In this document: positions 44,091 to 54,786 of the stretch, piece by piece | Numbering within the stretch: position 1 is the stretch's first letter | How the letters are laid out: every line of letters starts with the position of its first letter | From: Promethearchaeota archaeon | Lineage (GTDB): Archaea > Asgardarchaeota > Lokiarchaeia > Sigyniarchaeales > SOKP01 | Reading direction: 5' to 3' | Assembly (NCBI GenBank): GCA_011364925.1 | Contig: RDOA01000015.1 | Location: forward strand, 1-64,000 | DNA: 64,000 nucleotides | Notes under the pieces: model-generated | Database searches by the model: none | What the model was told of the DNA's origin: nothing | Seen by the model: only the letters and a program-made list of their open reading frames with translations | Position numbers and translations under genes: made by a program

Positions 44091-45047
44091 TTAAAAGTTG
44101 GAATAGATCATGAACTTATTTGCCGAACCTAAACTATATATTTCGAATTTTGATCCTTTCTTAGTCTCACAAAACATTTGGATCATAGGAAAGAGATAAA
44201 TTTGAGTAGTAATTTGAGCTTCTTTATCTTTATCGTAGGTTTTAAAATCGCTTCCTGCGGAACTGATTGTCTTTTTGATATTTTTATTCCAGTAACCTAA
44301 AGATGGCTCGGCTTTAGATTCTAATTCTTTAAAGTCATTAAATCTTATGCCTTCAACTTCTTCGATCATTTGGTGAAGGTCACGCTCAATCTCTTTTTCA
44401 TATTTCGTTTGAGCACTACTATGAAGAACTGGGATTCCTGTAACAACAGTTTTATAAGGAACTGGGAGAATTTGGTATTTGTACAAACTTTTATGTCCTC
44501 CACAATCTCTACACGGCTCTTTACTCGTGCCAGAGCCATAACAAACCCCACATGAATAAGAAAACGTTTTATCTTCTTTTTTTTGTTCTTCTCCCGTTAA
44601 GATACCCAACTTCTCTTCAATTTTTCCCGTTCCTTTGCATATTCTGCACTTATCTTCTATATATCCCTTACCATTACATTTTTTGCACGAGACAGCCTGA
44701 ATAGTCTCGTAGGTCGGTACTTTATCATCACCCTTCCAATTTTCTTTATTAACCTTCGATGTTCCCTTGAAAGAATAGAATGTTTCTCTCGGTACTTTTG
44801 GTGCAAGAACAGTTTTTTCTTCCGTTCCCTTGGGAACTGCGCCTACTGTTTTTTTAATCGCAAAATAGATTGCTGCTTCTTTTTGTGTGTCTTTGACATA
44901 TTCTGCTGCACTTATAGCATCTAAAGTAAAAACAGCACCTTTTGTGCCGAATTGTTTTTCCATTTTCTTTTTGTCATTTCTGACTGACTGAAGCTTCCAT
45001 TTTTCAAAAATATCGTCTAGATTAGGAGTTTTTATTCTCACTGACAT
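44091..45047 (-). CDS. DnaJ-type zinc-finger protein without a J domain
   Basis: The 318-residue protein has four CxxCxGxG-like repeats at residues 121-185 (CKKCNGKG, CRICKGTG, CGVCYGSG, CRDCGGHK). This is the cysteine-rich zinc domain of DnaJ, binding two zinc ions. There is no HPD-bearing J domain in front, and the C-terminal half (KYQILPVPYKTVVTGIP...) is unassigned, with LHQMIEEVEG and YWNKNIKKTI stretches. Such domains bind unfolded protein. It could be a substrate-binding co-chaperone or have another role. No DnaK or GrpE gene is nearby. It is divergent from the small gene at 45256. Confidence 0.8.
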   Translation of the reverse strand: MSVRIKTPNLDDIFEKWKLQSVRNDKKKMEKQFGTKGAVFTLDAISAAEYVKDTQKEAAIYFAIKKTVGAVPKGTEEKTVLAPKVPRETFYSFKGTSKVNKENWKGDDKVPTYETIQAVSCKKCNGKGYIEDKCRICKGTGKIEEKLGILTGEEQKKEDKTFSYSCGVCYGSGTSKEPCRDCGGHKSLYKYQILPVPYKTVVTGIPVLHSSAQTKYEKEIERDLHQMIEEVEGIRFNDFKELESKAEPSLGYWNKNIKKTISSAGSDFKTYDKDKEAQITTQIYLFPMIQMFCETKKGSKFEIYSLGSANKFMIYSNF

Positions 45048-45474: not shown

Positions 45475-45479
45475 GTGAT
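45475..45479 (+). promoter_or_regulatory. GTGAT-type Shine-Dalgarno deciding the helicase start
   Basis: GTGAT lies 7 bases before TTG at 45487. A GTG start at 45475 would be the ribosome binding site itself. This favours the TTG. Confidence 0.45.
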
Positions 45480-45486
45480 TTTTCTT

Positions 45487-48153
45487 TTGATTACCATTTC
45501 TAGAGCCTATTTTATTGCTTTCGATAAAAATTGGGAGAGCAAAAAAGAACAAAGCTTTATTGTGAACTTCTTTTATTTGAAATCGTTTAAGAAGAAAAGC
45601 CAGACATATTCGTACATAAAAAAACCTTTTTTGAAAGGAATCGTAATCTTTGGATTAGACTTTAAAGACAAGATTCGTCCTGTTAGTTTTTCTAAGATAG
45701 AGGTAGATGGAAAATTAGAACCAATTAATCCACGACTTCTTAAAGGTTTTTTAATTGATGAGAGAAATAAGTTTATCGCTTTTTCAAGTCAAACTAACCA
45801 AGAAGAATTTACTCCTATCATAAAAATGCTTGAAAATCTTCAATATGATAATGATAAAATTATAACTATGACTTTTTGCAAATCATGCTTAAATGATAAA
45901 AAATTTACAATTTTAAGCGAAAAATCTAAGATTAAATCAGTAAATAATCAGTTTCTTTGTCCTGATTGTGCGTTAGATGCTGTAGTGAATCAAGCGCAAA
46001 CAATAGGAATCATATCATCTGATAAACTTAGTCCTAAGCTCAAAAATTTCTTCATGCACTTAATACTCAAGTTCCGAGATATAAATAGAATACTGAACAC
46101 TTTTAAAGCAGATTTCAACCCAATAAAAGACAGAGAAATGACTATTTATGATATCGAAAAAAATCCATCAATTAGTAAGAAATATCAAAATTATATGATT
46201 GATGATGTAAATATACCTACAAAATTTAATAATTTATTAAAAGAACTTAATATTTCAAAACTCCTACCAATACAAGCGATTTCAATAGAGAAGGGTTTAA
46301 TACACAATCACAAAAACCAATTAGTTATGGCTCCAACATCAGCAGGTAAAACTCTTATTGGTGAATTAGCAGGAGTATCAAGAATTCTAGAAGATCACCG
46401 GAAACTTTTGTATTTAGTACCAATTAGAGCCCTTGCAAGTTTAAGAACTGAAGAATTCAAAAATAAATATAAACCACTGGAATTGAAAATTATTAAAAGA
46501 ATAGGAGAATCAATATTAGAAAAAAAAGATTTAGAGACGATAGAGGAATTAACAGATGCTGATATAATCATTGCTACATATGAAGCAATTGACTATATTT
46601 TAAGAAGCGGAAATAAAGATAAATTGGGCTCTATAGGGACGATAATTATTGATGAAATTCAGACTTTAATTGACCAAGAGCGCGGATATATATTAGATGG
46701 GTTAATAGCTCGTCTAAAATCATTTTTTAAGGATACACAATATTTGTATTTAAGTGCGACAATAGGAGCACCAGAAGCCTTGGCTAAAAAACTGGACTGC
46801 ATTTTAATTAAGTACAACAATAGACCAGTTCCAATCGAACGGCATTTAATCCTTTGTTTGAACGAGGCTGTCAAATTAAGAATTCTGACTAAATTAGTGC
46901 GAGCAGCCTTCTTAGAACGCTCATCATATGGATTTAAAGGGCAATCTATAATATTTACAAATTCAAGAAAAAAGTGCGAGTCGTTAACGAATTATCTACA
47001 AAATAAAGGTTTAAAAGTAAAATCTTACCATTCAGGACTAACTAATGAAGAGAGAGCAGAAATTGAAAATGAATTTCAAAATCAATATATCTCTGCAGTT
47101 GTAGCAACTGCGGCTTTAGCTGCTGGTGTTGATTTACCCGCTAAGCAAGTAATTTTTGAATCCTTAACTATGGGTATAAATTTACTGACAGTTGCAGAAT
47201 TTGAACAGATGTTGGGAAGAGCGGGAAGGTTAAAAAAGCATGATATTGGAAGAGCATATCTTCTTGTCGAACCTGGAAAGATCTATTCTCATAAAACAAA
47301 AATTACTGAAGATAATATTGCTATTAATTTATTAAATGGAAAAATAAAAGATTATGAATTACAACCCGATGGAGATAAATCTTTAACTGAACTACTCGCT
47401 CTTGTTTCAATGTATCAAGATGGAATCGAACGAGAAAAAATTTATAGATTTAATGAGTATTTAATTAATTCCGATTATGAGATAGAGGAATTCTTAAAAA
47501 AACTAGTTAACTTTCAATTAGTTAAATTAGAGAGCAGATTTATTTTCAAATGTACCTTTTTAGGCCAATCAATCGCTAAATCTTTTCTTACCGTTGAAAA
47601 AAGCTTGGAAATTGTGGAGTTTCTTAAAAAAAAAGAAAAAACGATAGTTGATATTGTCCTTGAATTGAAACCGCTCAGAAATGTTTATCTAACAAAGAAA
47701 GTAGTTGCTGATTTATCAAAACACAGAGCTGCAAAGTATTCCTCAAATAATTTCTTTAGCGCTAGTGTTCTCTCGTTGATGGATGCAAATTATGTTAGAA
47801 AGAGGAAATCCTTCTCAGATGAGTTTATTGAATATGTAGTAAAATGGACTCAAGAGATTTTTAATTGTGAATGTAAGGATAAACCCTATTGTGAATGCGG
47901 TAGAATTAATCTGGAACGAATAATCTTAGACTTAAGGATTGAAAAAAGATTGTCAATTAGTGAAATTAGTGAATATCTCGAAGAAGAGCTAAAAATCTTA
48001 ATCTATAAAGGAGATATAACTGATTATTTAGAAAATTTAATCTATTCTTTCGAAAGTATACTTAATATTTCACAAGGTATCCCTAATTTGGACTCAGAAT
48101 ACGAGAAAGAAATCTCTCAGATTCCCAAAATTATTGAAAATATTAAAAATTGA
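45487..48153 (+). CDS. Ski2-like DEAD/DEAH-box helicase with N-terminal zinc region
   Basis: With the TTG at 45487 the protein has 888 residues. An N-terminal domain of about 240 residues contains FCKSCL and, later, FLCPDCAL, which may bind zinc; it resembles archaeal DUF5814-type helicases. The motor has the Q-like LPIQAISIEKG, motif I APTSAGKT, Ia PIRALASLR, II DEIQ (a DEVH/DEIQ variant), III LSATIGAPE, IV FTNSRKKCES, V ATAALAAGVDLPAKQ and VI QMLGRAGR. Ski2-like helicases unwind RNA or repair DNA. C-terminal CECKDKPYCECG is a further cysteine cluster. The longin-like gene follows on the same strand, 125 bases away. Confidence 0.9.
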   Translation: MITISRAYFIAFDKNWESKKEQSFIVNFFYLKSFKKKSQTYSYIKKPFLKGIVIFGLDFKDKIRPVSFSKIEVDGKLEPINPRLLKGFLIDERNKFIAFSSQTNQEEFTPIIKMLENLQYDNDKIITMTFCKSCLNDKKFTILSEKSKIKSVNNQFLCPDCALDAVVNQAQTIGIISSDKLSPKLKNFFMHLILKFRDINRILNTFKADFNPIKDREMTIYDIEKNPSISKKYQNYMIDDVNIPTKFNNLLKELNISKLLPIQAISIEKGLIHNHKNQLVMAPTSAGKTLIGELAGVSRILEDHRKLLYLVPIRALASLRTEEFKNKYKPLELKIIKRIGESILEKKDLETIEELTDADIIIATYEAIDYILRSGNKDKLGSIGTIIIDEIQTLIDQERGYILDGLIARLKSFFKDTQYLYLSATIGAPEALAKKLDCILIKYNNRPVPIERHLILCLNEAVKLRILTKLVRAAFLERSSYGFKGQSIIFTNSRKKCESLTNYLQNKGLKVKSYHSGLTNEERAEIENEFQNQYISAVVATAALAAGVDLPAKQVIFESLTMGINLLTVAEFEQMLGRAGRLKKHDIGRAYLLVEPGKIYSHKTKITEDNIAINLLNGKIKDYELQPDGDKSLTELLALVSMYQDGIEREKIYRFNEYLINSDYEIEEFLKKLVNFQLVKLESRFIFKCTFLGQSIAKSFLTVEKSLEIVEFLKKKEKTIVDIVLELKPLRNVYLTKKVVADLSKHRAAKYSSNNFFSASVLSLMDANYVRKRKSFSDEFIEYVVKWTQEIFNCECKDKPYCECGRINLERIILDLRIEKRLSISEISEYLEEELKILIYKGDITDYLENLIYSFESILNISQGIPNLDSEYEKEISQIPKIIENIKN

Positions 48154-48278: not shown

Positions 48279-49238
48279 ATGATTTATTCCATTTTTCTTT
48301 ATCAAAGCCACACTGGATTATTGATTTACGAAAAGAGTTTTCAAGATATTAGTGCGGGAAAAATGGAAATGTTTAGTTCTTTTTTCTCAGCGATTAAAAC
48401 TTTTGTTTCTGAACTTGTTTTAGGGGATTCTCAGGATCGCTCAAATGAATTGACAAACATCGAACTAAAAGATTATATCATTCTAATCACCTCTTTACCT
48501 AAAATTAAAGTCGATATGGCAATTATCGCTGATAAAGAAGATATTAAATCCATAAACAAAGTTATACCAAAATTAATTAAATTGTTAAACAAATACGAAC
48601 AACTATTTCTTTTATGGAATGGAAATAAGGATGAATTAACTATTTTAGATAACCCACTTACAGAATCAATTGTATCTAATGTAAAAGTTGTGAGAAAATC
48701 TTTGTTAGAACATCCTGGTCAGATGTTAAAATCAATTTGGGCGCATAAAAAGAAACTCTCAGAAGAAAACGTTGAAAATCTAATCCAAGAACGAGATTTA
48801 TTAATTTACAAAATTGAGAATATTGGGAATCTCCCAACTAAAATTGCTATGTCTAAAACCGTTATTGATTTATCAGAGAAATTAAACGATGAATTAACCT
48901 TTCTGAAATATCAGGATGAGATTATTAAGCTAAAAAATGAATTAAACGATGTTAAGTTCAAATTGAGCTATTACTTAGAAAAAACAAGAGAAGCTTTAAA
49001 TGAGGCTATATGTAAGTTAGGTGATAAACCACTTCATTTAGGCGATTTTAAAAGCACATATCTTAATTTGTATTCCTTTAGCACAAAGCTGAAATTAATA
49101 AAAGAAAGTGGTTGGGAAATCTATCGCGATTCTGCAACTAAATTAATTGAAAAAGACATGGTAAGTGAACATGATCTTTCTCAAATTATCCAAGATTTGT
49201 TAAAAATGAGTACTAATGTTGAAGATTATTTGAGTTAA
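48279..49238 (+). CDS. Longin-like domain protein with C-terminal coiled coil
   Basis: The 319-residue protein opens IYSIFLYQSHTGLLIYEKSF, then GKMEMFSSFFSAIKTFVSEL, with ELKDYIILITSLPKIKVDMAII strands. This is the strand-helix order of the longin/SRX-like domain frequent in Asgard archaea (residues 1-125). The second half is helical with coiled-coil stretches (EKLNDELTFLKYQDEIIKLK). Longin domains in eukaryotes act in vesicle traffic and bind small GTPases. Its stop is 28 bases from the stop of a DRG-like GTPase gene on the other strand, beyond which a second longin-like gene sits. The domain call is by fold pattern and is not proven. Confidence 0.66.
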   Translation: MIYSIFLYQSHTGLLIYEKSFQDISAGKMEMFSSFFSAIKTFVSELVLGDSQDRSNELTNIELKDYIILITSLPKIKVDMAIIADKEDIKSINKVIPKLIKLLNKYEQLFLLWNGNKDELTILDNPLTESIVSNVKVVRKSLLEHPGQMLKSIWAHKKKLSEENVENLIQERDLLIYKIENIGNLPTKIAMSKTVIDLSEKLNDELTFLKYQDEIIKLKNELNDVKFKLSYYLEKTREALNEAICKLGDKPLHLGDFKSTYLNLYSFSTKLKLIKESGWEIYRDSATKLIEKDMVSEHDLSQIIQDLLKMSTNVEDYLS

Positions 49239-49266
49239 CTATATCTATTTCAATTCATTCTAATTT

Positions 49267-50469
49267 TTATTTAGTATGTAATTCGATTATATCATTTTCT
49301 TTTAACTCGTAATTTAAACCAACTTTTTTCTTTTTTTGTTTTACGCCTTTCCGAATAACGATAGCATAATCGAATGATTCGTAAAAACTTCGATGTATTT
49401 TAATTGCTACATCCCTTATCGTAGGCTGAATTTGGATACAATCAAGAATAAGCGGTTTTTCTGCAATTACACCCTTATGCATAGTATAAATTTTGATTTT
49501 TTTTAAAAAGGTCAGTACGATTTTTCCAAAATCCTCTGGAATTTCCCCCTTTATAGCACTCGTCCCTATTACCAATGGGAACTGGTTAGAATAATAATTT
49601 TGTAATTCAAAAAATGTATTTTTGGTAAGTGATAAGTCTCCTTTAGTTCCCAATATGATAGCTTTCTTGTATGCTACAGAAGGATTTAGTGCATCTACAA
49701 CCTGATCAAGCTCAATCTGTCCAAAAATTTTAACAATCCCGTTCCGTATACCTCCAGCGTGAACTATTTCTGTAATTTTCTCTGTCAATTCTTCAAGATT
49801 ATTATTTTTTTTAGCTTCACTTGTTAAATAAAATACTTGAATTTTATTGGATCCTGTTTTTTCGATTGTAATTGGAGGAGGAGGGAGATTAATTCGTATG
49901 TGAGATTCACTTAATTCGTTAAGTAGCAAATTCATTTGCTCCTGATAATTACGTGATAAATCAACGCAAAAACATATTAGATCACATGCTCTTAATTGAG
50001 AAATTATTTCTTTGCCATTACCTATTCCGTTCGCTGCCCCTTCCATTATGGAAGGCATGTCTACTATTTGGTAACGAACTTTATTATACTCATAAATTCC
50101 TATTTCAGGTAAAGGTGTAAATTTGCCAATCTTTTCTTTTGCAGTTCCTGTTAATAAATTGAGAATAGAAGTTTTTCCTACTCCGGGAGTATGATAATCA
50201 CTTATTAGAATCAATTGGATTCCTTCTTTTTTTATAGAAAAGGGACTAACTTGCTTACCCATAGATTTACTACGAATTTTTTGAGCTTCTTGTTCTCTTC
50301 TAAGTTTAGCAAGCCGCGATTTGTTTAAGGCAACAATTTTCTCTGTAGCTTTGTGTTTTGGAACTAAGGAAAGAAATTCTTCTAAGCGGTTAATCCTTTC
50401 ATCAATCGTAGTAGCATCTAAATACTTTTGATAAGCGGCTTCAGCTTCTGGTCCTATATTTGAACTCAA
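49267..50469 (-). CDS. Divergent DRG/Obg-family GTPase with C-terminal TGS domain
   Basis: The 400-residue protein has the DRG start (ALNKSRLAKLRREQEAQ), a G domain at 80-330 and a C-terminal TGS (KIHRSFYESFDYAIV, KVGLNYELKENDIIEL). It fits DRG in order and length, but its GTP sites have changed. The P-loop is HTPGVGKTS, with histidine at the first glycine position. G3 is DMPS (137-140) instead of DxPG, and G4 reads TKGD. EGAANGIGNG is DRG-like. Typical DRGs bind ribosomes with DFRP partners. This paralogue is preceded by a longin-domain gene in the same operon (33 bases), so a different role is likely. Whether it hydrolyses GTP is uncertain. Confidence 0.82.
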   Translation of the reverse strand: MSSNIGPEAEAAYQKYLDATTIDERINRLEEFLSLVPKHKATEKIVALNKSRLAKLRREQEAQKIRSKSMGKQVSPFSIKKEGIQLILISDYHTPGVGKTSILNLLTGTAKEKIGKFTPLPEIGIYEYNKVRYQIVDMPSIMEGAANGIGNGKEIISQLRACDLICFCVDLSRNYQEQMNLLLNELSESHIRINLPPPPITIEKTGSNKIQVFYLTSEAKKNNNLEELTEKITEIVHAGGIRNGIVKIFGQIELDQVVDALNPSVAYKKAIILGTKGDLSLTKNTFFELQNYYSNQFPLVIGTSAIKGEIPEDFGKIVLTFLKKIKIYTMHKGVIAEKPLILDCIQIQPTIRDVAIKIHRSFYESFDYAIVIRKGVKQKKKKVGLNYELKENDIIELHTK

Positions 50470-50502
50470 TAAAAAAGACCTCTCTTAATTTGTATTTATA
50501 AT

Positions 50503-50958
50503 TCAAAAAATTGACCGGAATCTATCTTCGGTTTTTAGTTTTAAATCTCCTATTATTTCATTAATTCGAACTTCAAATTTTTGAAAGAATTTTTCTTTTT
50601 TTGAGAAAATATCGTTAAGAGAGTATCTATTTAAAAAACGGGAATTAACTTCCCTTAGATGTTTCTTTACAATGGTTGAATCTGTTTCTTTTTCAGTTAT
50701 TGCGAAAGATATCAAAGGTTGCTTGTTCGATTCGTCGTCTGGTAAAGAGATTAAATCACAATAACATACCAGTTTAAATGAGGCTAGAGAAATGACATTT
50801 ATATCATCACCAAATACTTCTGATGTGAAACTTTCGAGAGCAGAGAGAAAACCGGCTCTTAATTCGGGATCTAACCCCACTCCAGTATCTGAATCATAAT
50901 ACTTTATATTTAAAAGATTCCGTATCCCTAAATTTATTCCAAGTTCTAAGATGGCCAT
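50503..50958 (-). CDS. Longin-like domain protein upstream of the DRG-like GTPase
   Basis: The 151-residue protein reads IRNLLNIKYYDSDTGVGLDP, then ELRAGFLSALESFTSEVFGDD, ISLASFKLVCYCDLISLPD and PLISFAITEKETDSTIVKKH with a last helix. This is the layout of Asgard longin-like domains, with the typical helix that follows two strands (xGFLSALxSFxxE). It is transcribed before the GTPase gene with a 33-base gap, so both probably work together. The protein at 48279 shares the same helix pattern (SSFFSAIKTFVSEL). It has no membrane segment or signal peptide. Confidence 0.68.
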   Translation of the reverse strand: MAILELGINLGIRNLLNIKYYDSDTGVGLDPELRAGFLSALESFTSEVFGDDINVISLASFKLVCYCDLISLPDDESNKQPLISFAITEKETDSTIVKKHLREVNSRFLNRYSLNDIFSKKEKFFQKFEVRINEIIGDLKLKTEDRFRSIF

Positions 50959-53259: not shown

Positions 53260-54786
53260 CTAAAAAATTTCACTTATGCTCTTGTATAGAGTAGCACTAT
53301 TGGACTGAAATTGTTCGTGGGTTACAAATAAACTTTGAAAGCTTGGAAGACTCCCAAGTATGCTCGCACCATTAAATATAGCAAACTGTAAGTTTTCTGG
53401 GACAAAAAATCTTAAAACTTCTTCTGATGATTCGTAGAAACCTGAAAATTCTTTTGCAGGTGTAGTATTCTTAATAATCTCGGGAGGAATCTCTGGAATT
53501 CTTGTTGTTTGAATACTTGCTCCACAATACGGACAAAAAAATGACTTAACGTCTTCAATTTCTTTATTACAATTAGAACATAAAATTTTGCCACCTTCAA
53601 GCTTGGAATTTTTAGCCATTTTTACACCTCCAATTGTAAGTTCTGGTAATGCGATTCGACCGTTACAAGATGGACAAAATTCTTTACCATCTGTAAGATC
53701 TACAAGCGTACCACAATGTGGGCATGTATCTTCCTTCTTTTGCGATTTTTCCTTTGGTTTTAACTTTTGCCTTCCTTCCCGCGAAGGTTGAGTAATTTTA
53801 GGTTTAGGGATCTTTCCTAATTGAGGGAGTAATTGGTTTAATTCTAATCTCAGTCTCTCTTCAAATCCAGAATATGAGAGATTTCCACCCGAAATCATAA
53901 TATGAGAAAGAAGATCACTCCAGAAGTATTTATCGATTCCTTGTAAACTATTTATCATTGCCTCTGGTATATTCATAATATTATATCCCAATAAATTAGG
54001 CTTAAACATTACCTCTGGAGCTTCATGGAAAATATAATTTGGAATATTAATGTTTGAACCATCTGGCATCGCAAAACTATAACTTTCATCTACTTTTGGA
54101 GGGTTCTCGGGATCTAAAGCAAAAAAACAATTCTTTTCTTTGATATCTTTAACTATTTCATCTACAGCGCTTGATTCTATATTGATCCCTTCTCTCATAA
54201 GCAAATTTTTTAAATGCTGATTTACATCTATACCAGCTAAAGTTAATTTTTGGACTGATTGCTCAACCATTTCTCCATTTAGAATCGGGCATACCCAAGT
54301 TATCCCATCACCACTTTCTACAACAATTCCAGTCGTAAGACCTACACTGAATAGTGAAAGTATTGGTGTTGGGATCATTATTAAACTTTTTACTCTATGC
54401 GTTTCAAACAAAACTCGGGCAATGTATTCCTTAGTCTCTCGTTGAACAAATGGAGATTCAGTATATAACACGGGATAATTAGCCATGTTTTCGATTCTAA
54501 GTAACGAATAAAAGATGTAATTTAATATTTCATAGTAGTCGTTCCAATCCGTTATCGCACCTCGTTCGATTGGGTGCTTTATTTTTAGAACACCTCTCAT
54601 TTTTGAAGCGTCTGATCCAATATATATATTTCGAGCTCCCACATCAACCATCACAGCTTTATATTTTTCTGTACCTGTGATTGTGGGGAACACAAATCTA
54701 GGACTGGGCTCTCCTGCGAATCCTATTTTAGTGTAGGCTGATCCAATGTCAACAATAATCGGAGTTCCGGGTAATGGGATTGCCAT
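53260..54786 (-). CDS. Actin-related protein with inserted double zinc ribbon
   Basis: The 508-residue protein has the actin core. IVDIGSAYTKIGFAGE (11-26) is the first phosphate loop, GAITDWNDYYEI (76-87) aligns with the actin W-D segment, GIVVESGDGITW (153-164) is the second phosphate loop, HIMISGGNLSYSGF (295-308) is the adenosine motif, and NLQFAIFNGASILGSL near the end matches actin's GGSILASL. Between the last two lies an insert of about 110 residues with a basic linker. It contains two zinc ribbons (Cys355/358/371/374 and Cys403/406/418/421). The insert sits where subdomain 3 continues. The protein may polymerise or act as an ARP scaffold. It is a single gene on its strand with no clear operon partner. 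Confidence 0.88.
   Translation of the reverse strand: MAIPLPGTPIIVDIGSAYTKIGFAGEPSPRFVFPTITGTEKYKAVMVDVGARNIYIGSDASKMRGVLKIKHPIERGAITDWNDYYEILNYIFYSLLRIENMANYPVLYTESPFVQRETKEYIARVLFETHRVKSLIMIPTPILSLFSVGLTTGIVVESGDGITWVCPILNGEMVEQSVQKLTLAGIDVNQHLKNLLMREGINIESSAVDEIVKDIKEKNCFFALDPENPPKVDESYSFAMPDGSNINIPNYIFHEAPEVMFKPNLLGYNIMNIPEAMINSLQGIDKYFWSDLLSHIMISGGNLSYSGFEERLRLELNQLLPQLGKIPKPKITQPSREGRQKLKPKEKSQKKEDTCPHCGTLVDLTDGKEFCPSCNGRIALPELTIGGVKMAKNSKLEGGKILCSNCNKEIEDVKSFFCPYCGASIQTTRIPEIPPEIIKNTTPAKEFSGFYESSEEVLRFFVPENLQFAIFNGASILGSLPSFQSLFVTHEQFQSNSATLYKSISEIF

Follow-up and report, generated by a model that had tools for sequence, protein, structure and literature searches.

A longin gene paired with a divergent DRG-type GTPase gene in Lokiarchaea, and an Asgard-wide clade of DRG paralogues

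The longin fold is usually seen in regulators of membrane traffic, and longin and roadblock domains act as platforms for the GTPases of eukaryotic traffic and nutrient signalling. Asgard archaea encode dozens of such domains for which, to our knowledge, no partner has been described. The known partner of DRG GTPases is DFRP, and in yeast Rbg1 and Rbg2 are paired with Tma46 and Gir2. We know of no longin counterpart in the yeast system of Ski2/Slh1 and Hbs1/Ski7. The function of yeast Rbg1 depends on its HTH and TGS domains, of which TGS binds the DFRP partner, and growth assays have combined rbg1 rbg2 mutations with slh1, the SLH1 product being a Ski2-like helicase (PMC3510508). Yeast Rbg2 on stalled ribosomes touches the 40S and 60S subunits and the A-site tRNA (PMC8040806). 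A genetic link connects RBG and SLH1 in yeast (PMC3510508, PMC8040806). In the Asgard archaeon MK-D1, small GTPase genes generally lie outside operons with longin genes (PMC10933270), and longin partners are therefore hard to guess. A conserved pair of longin and GTPase genes, such as the one described here, gives a concrete and testable partner. The longin and the DRG GTPase are proteins of known kinds; what appears to be new is their pairing and the paralogue clade to which the GTPase belongs. We found no report of either in the open-licence literature, in line with the first-pass annotation, which had put the cluster forward as a candidate for an undescribed system.

We analysed a stretch of 64,000 nucleotides (the window) from an Asgard genome of 3.9 Mb (G000), to which Lokiarchaeota MAGs are the closest among named relatives. 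LonginA (P0003; 50503..50958, minus strand), a protein of 151 aa with a single longin domain, is encoded by the first gene of a presumed two-gene unit. The second gene, on the same strand, encodes a DRG-paralogue GTPase of 400 aa (P0002; 49267..50469). The 33-bp gap between them (50470..50502) carries GAGAGG, a Shine-Dalgarno-like stretch, ahead of the TTG start of the GTPase, and to judge from the sequence is short for a separate promoter. A further longin protein of 319 aa, LonginCC (P0001; 48279..49238, plus strand), is convergent on the GTPase gene from 28 bp away. The first-pass annotation had placed all three genes and both gaps correctly. The Ski2-like helicase gene (45475..48153, plus strand) encodes a DUF5814 domain and a CxxC..CxxC motif; its product matches PDB 7ujb at E 8e-129, its exact family name being tentative, and it is adjoined by the gene of a DnaJ-like zinc-motif protein (44091-45047, minus strand). 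The window also encodes an actin-family protein of 508 aa (53260-54786, minus strand; Pfam Actin, E 1.8e-71) with a double zinc ribbon, its two zinc-ribbon motifs lying between actin segments near the C-terminal end. A gene of that size is retained in nearly all relatives of family f1.

Profile searches of Pfam, NCBIfam and the PDB returned no significant longin match for either LonginA or LonginCC. Predicted structures did confirm the longin-like folds, and the coiled coil in LonginCC, that had been proposed from the letters alone. AlphaFold2, given alignments of relatives, predicts the longin topology (beta-beta-alpha-beta-beta-beta-alpha-alpha) for the whole of LonginA (E-E-H-E-E-E-H-H; pLDDT 83.7, pTM 0.79) and for residues 1-111 of LonginCC, followed by a helical or coiled-coil C-terminal half (whole-model pLDDT 83.8, pTM 0.59). 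In Foldseek searches the top matches of LonginA were the longin folds of VAMP7, AP sigma and Bet5 (3cue_C), with a best E value of 4e-4; those of the LonginCC domain, which were weaker, were AP sigma, Ykt6 and TRAPP proteins (best E 0.01, probability 1.0). The two proteins share fold and topology with the longins of TRAPP (Bet5/Trs23), AP sigma and VAMP7/Ykt6/Sec22. However, identity to these is below 20%, neither a SNARE motif nor a transmembrane segment was seen, and the genomic coupling is to a DRG-type GTPase rather than a Rab. Asgard archaea also have fusions of a longin to an Arf- or Rag-like GTPase, and one of 297 aa is encoded in the window's own genome amid several small GTPase genes (L207:4206-5099, G000:C38). 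The longin of this fusion (L007/L207) matches the profiles of both LonginA and LonginCC, its homology to LonginA being weak (E 1.5e-5). In such fusions the GTPase is a small one of the Ras superfamily, whereas here the genes are separate and the GTPase is of the Obg/DRG class. A 40-sequence alignment revealed a family-wide motif at the C-terminus of LonginA, GDLxLKxEDRFRS[IL]F. We considered it as a DRG-binding signature and rejected it, as it is present also in copies that do not adjoin a DRG gene.

The GTPase is DRG-like over its whole length, and the DRG N-terminus and TGS domain claimed at first reading are both borne out. In a phmmer search of the PDB its residues 20-397 align with residues 9-373 of yeast Rbg1 (4a9a, E 5.9e-31), that is, with the full length of that protein; identity is 39% in the HTH and 33% over the N-terminal portion of the G domain. 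Pfam recovers MMR_HSR1 and TGS above the cut-off, and MMR_HSR1_Xtn below its curated cut-off. The order of modules is that of the DRG family: an N-terminal extension and HTH, a G domain with altered G1, G3 and G4 motifs, the S5D2L region, and a C-terminal TGS domain. The nucleotide site differs from that of DRG1/DRG2 (Rbg1/Rbg2). The canonical motifs GxPSxGKS, DxPG and NKxD occur in 100% of canonical rows of our motif table, and the Lokiarchaeal branch has replacements for them. The first P-loop glycine is replaced in 15/15 sequences, and ahead of it lies an insertion; the DxxG glycine is missing in 15/15; NKxD has become TKGD in most, and the switch-I stretch is shortened. The altered motifs noticed in the window (HTPGVGKT, DMPS and TKGD) are indeed there and are conserved in relatives. 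The P-loop lysine and serine or threonine and the G4 lysine and aspartate are retained almost everywhere, which makes nucleotide binding plausible; normal hydrolysis or switching seems doubtful from these sequences. A copy of 183 aa comprising only the C-terminal part of the GTPase (S5D2L region and TGS) adjoins a full-length helicase gene in one genome (L108:8035-8586, G123:C1), and the full GTPase elsewhere in that genome adjoins a shortened helicase copy.

Relatives of the GTPase were found throughout the Asgard phylum. A tree of 89 sequences is divided by a split with 100% SH-aLRT support into canonical DRGs, comprising those of Methanoliparum-phylum archaea, Asgard DRG and yeast Rbg1/Rbg2, and an Asgard-only clade, clade B, that contains the GTPase of the window. 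The protein thus falls outside the canonical DRG1/DRG2 orthologue group. That it is a DRG paralogue agrees with the first reading; it is no local oddity, being the Lokiarchaeal branch of an Asgard-wide clade. Clade B proteins carry an extra N-terminal helix of ~20 residues. The search beyond Asgard covered one archaeal phylum, the Methanoliparum phylum, where 58/60 genomes had a match, each to a single DRG apart from one genome with an additional weak match, and none of the 60 showed a clade-B copy. No canonical DRG was detected in the window genome at E 1e-40; 31 of ~61 genomes of family f1 have one and about half are without. The clade-B locus L096 belongs to a genome placed in the same order (G160, family f4); in the tree it clusters with family f20, and its contig is possibly misbinned.

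The known DRG partner was not found in these genomes. DFRP (PF16543) gave no match in the window genome at E 0.1, which thus shows no encoded partner for a DRG-DFRP complex, and DFRP_C scored above the cut-off in 0/224 Asgard genomes. Because the HTH, S5D2L and TGS modules are retained, action on ribosomes or tRNA appears the likeliest role for the GTPase, and we infer that it most likely still acts there. In many Asgard loci outside Lokiarchaea, the clade-B gene is flanked by a HemK-like or TrmY-like methyltransferase gene on one side and a SpoU/TrmJ-like methyltransferase gene on the other, a translation and RNA-modification context.

In Lokiarchaea, LonginA directly precedes the GTPase gene on the same strand in 49/50 loci that have both, with a gap of 7-176 bp (median ~25 bp, mostly 20-40 bp). 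This adjacency, which has lasted through most of the order, suggests, without proving, that the two are partners. It might instead be synteny inherited without function, the block having stayed unrearranged while the longin serves other GTPases. In family f1 the whole block from MBL to Zn318 is syntenic, and control pairs are equally conserved (PT369-FolD in 40/40 and FolD-LonginA in 42/44 cases), so f1 adjacency alone proves little and the weight rests on f3, the family of MK-D1-like and Prometheoarchaeum genomes. There the pair is intact in loci L081, L082, L086 and L088, where FolD, the actin-like gene, LonginCC and the helicase are not its neighbours and the MBL gene is a shared flank. The short same-strand gap is thus kept despite mostly different flanking genes, and insertions and deletions occur on both flanks of the pair and almost never within it. 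On the other side, Lokiarchaeal longin genes are numerous, with 41 predicted longin domains (PMC10933270), and LonginA persists without the GTPase in G089, where it abuts a Rab-like GTPase gene, and as more distant homologues in G086, G087 and G093. In a mirror-tree analysis the partial correlation of LonginA with the GTPase is weak (0.32) and below that of the GTPase with the helicase (0.50). On balance we consider inherited synteny without function somewhat unlikely.

What is conserved is not the cluster of three genes. The first-pass annotation had made recurrence of the neighbourhood in relatives a check on its reading; the longin-GTPase adjacency does recur, and LonginCC is at the locus in only 21/51 cases. 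In family f2 LonginA and the GTPase gene are ~9 kb apart. Second copies of LonginA were considered as neighbours of another DRG; those examined adjoin HDAC, DUF7000 or unrelated genes. No LonginA was found on plasmids. The suggestion that the GTPase was recruited to a longin stays conjectural, LonginA also occurring without it in G089.

The helicase of the window offers a further context. Ski2-like helicases with DUF5814 are present in 191/224 Asgard genomes, mostly in single copy, and families f1, f2 and f3 retain the pair of helicase and DnaJ-like zinc-motif protein. In most f1 loci the helicase gene follows the GTPase gene, either immediately or with one gene in between. In f17, a distant Asgard family, LonginA has an orthologue by reciprocal best hits, and its gene comes immediately downstream of that for the window helicase's orthologue in 8/8 genomes in which the helicase was found. 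On contigs that are long enough, the longin is followed by a conserved protein of 125 aa, which has no Pfam match, and then by a paralogue of EF1A-like GTPases. The full row (L226-L230, L235, L198) runs from a methyltransferase gene through those of the Ski2-like helicase and the longin to the 125-aa protein and the EF1A-like GTPase paralogue; some of these loci also have a gene for a PHP-domain protein. A helicase beside a longin was not seen in families f2, f3, f4, f7, f9, f10, f12, f18, f20, f25, f26 or f28; we accordingly rejected a general Asgard longin-helicase link, which among the families examined is confined to f1 and f17. The f17 arrangement recalls yeast Ski2/Slh1 and Hbs1/Ski7 in placing a Ski2-like helicase and an EF1A-like GTPase together, here in one operon with a longin; unlike the yeast system, the Asgard link is known from genes alone, and in f1 the helicase gene is nearby and not co-transcribed. 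Its bearing on the Lokiarchaeal pair is post hoc and suggestive. The company of the f17 longin favours a ribosome or RNA-surveillance context over a membrane platform. The first reading had left the choice between the two, and its membrane half finds no support: no C-terminal lipidation cysteine or transmembrane segment was seen in the LonginA or GTPase sequences, and in other Asgard lineages the neighbouring genes point to translation, RNA modification, an RNA helicase and an EF1A-like GTPase.

LonginA might chiefly regulate a Rab-like small GTPase, with the DRG paralogue as a passenger or second client. Its weak homology to the longin of the Arf fusion fits such a role, as do the gene orders MBL - longin - Rab-like GTPase in G089, with no clade-B gene between, and longin - DRG - Rab-like GTPase, all in one direction, in the MK-D1-like genome G088, the latter order also being compatible with inherited synteny. 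Small GTPases are bound by longin and roadblock platforms elsewhere (PMC10933270). However, the Rab-like gene is off-locus in f1, f2 and the other f3 loci, where the DRG is mostly present, and the f17 longin accompanies a helicase and an EF1A-like GTPase rather than a small GTPase, so that we regard this role as quite improbable. A TRAPP-like heterodimer of LonginA and LonginCC, with the GTPase as client, would suit the 20 loci in which both flank the GTPase gene and the f2 genome (G085) in which the two longin genes are adjacent, co-directional and about 200 bp apart, but it is very unlikely, since LonginCC is off-locus in 30/51 loci and not found anywhere in several genomes and the two longins match only weakly in a direct profile comparison.

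The reading we tentatively prefer, at a little short of even chances, is a Lokiarchaeal two-gene unit of stand-alone LonginA and the DRG-paralogue GTPase, likely ribosomal, in which the longin takes DFRP's place. It builds on the predicted folds, the paralogue clade, the conserved adjacency on one strand and the changes in the nucleotide-site motifs; the replacement of DFRP is a proposal made from genome context. The two genes would be co-transcribed and their products would bind each other. The GTPase would act at the ribosome or tRNA through its HTH, S5D2L and TGS modules, as yeast DRGs do at the ribosomal A site. LonginA, as a homodimer or sometimes together with LonginCC, would substitute for the missing DFRP. 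It may stabilise the GTPase, regulate its altered nucleotide site and couple it to other factors, plausibly those of RNA surveillance such as the Ski2-like helicase. A broader possibility, which we hold to be decidedly doubtful, is that an Asgard longin is dedicated to ribosome-acting GTPases, the DRG paralogue in Lokiarchaea and the EF1A paralogue in f17, and forms with the Ski2-like helicase a longin-based module of ribosome surveillance.

The Asgard-wide clade of DRG paralogues is a finding separate from the gene pair, and work on eukaryotic origins should distinguish its members from the DRG orthologue. A longin-based ribosome-surveillance module, if real, would put the longin fold to work in something other than membrane traffic. 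Should the pair prove to act on ribosomes, longin roles beyond membranes would predate eukaryotes.
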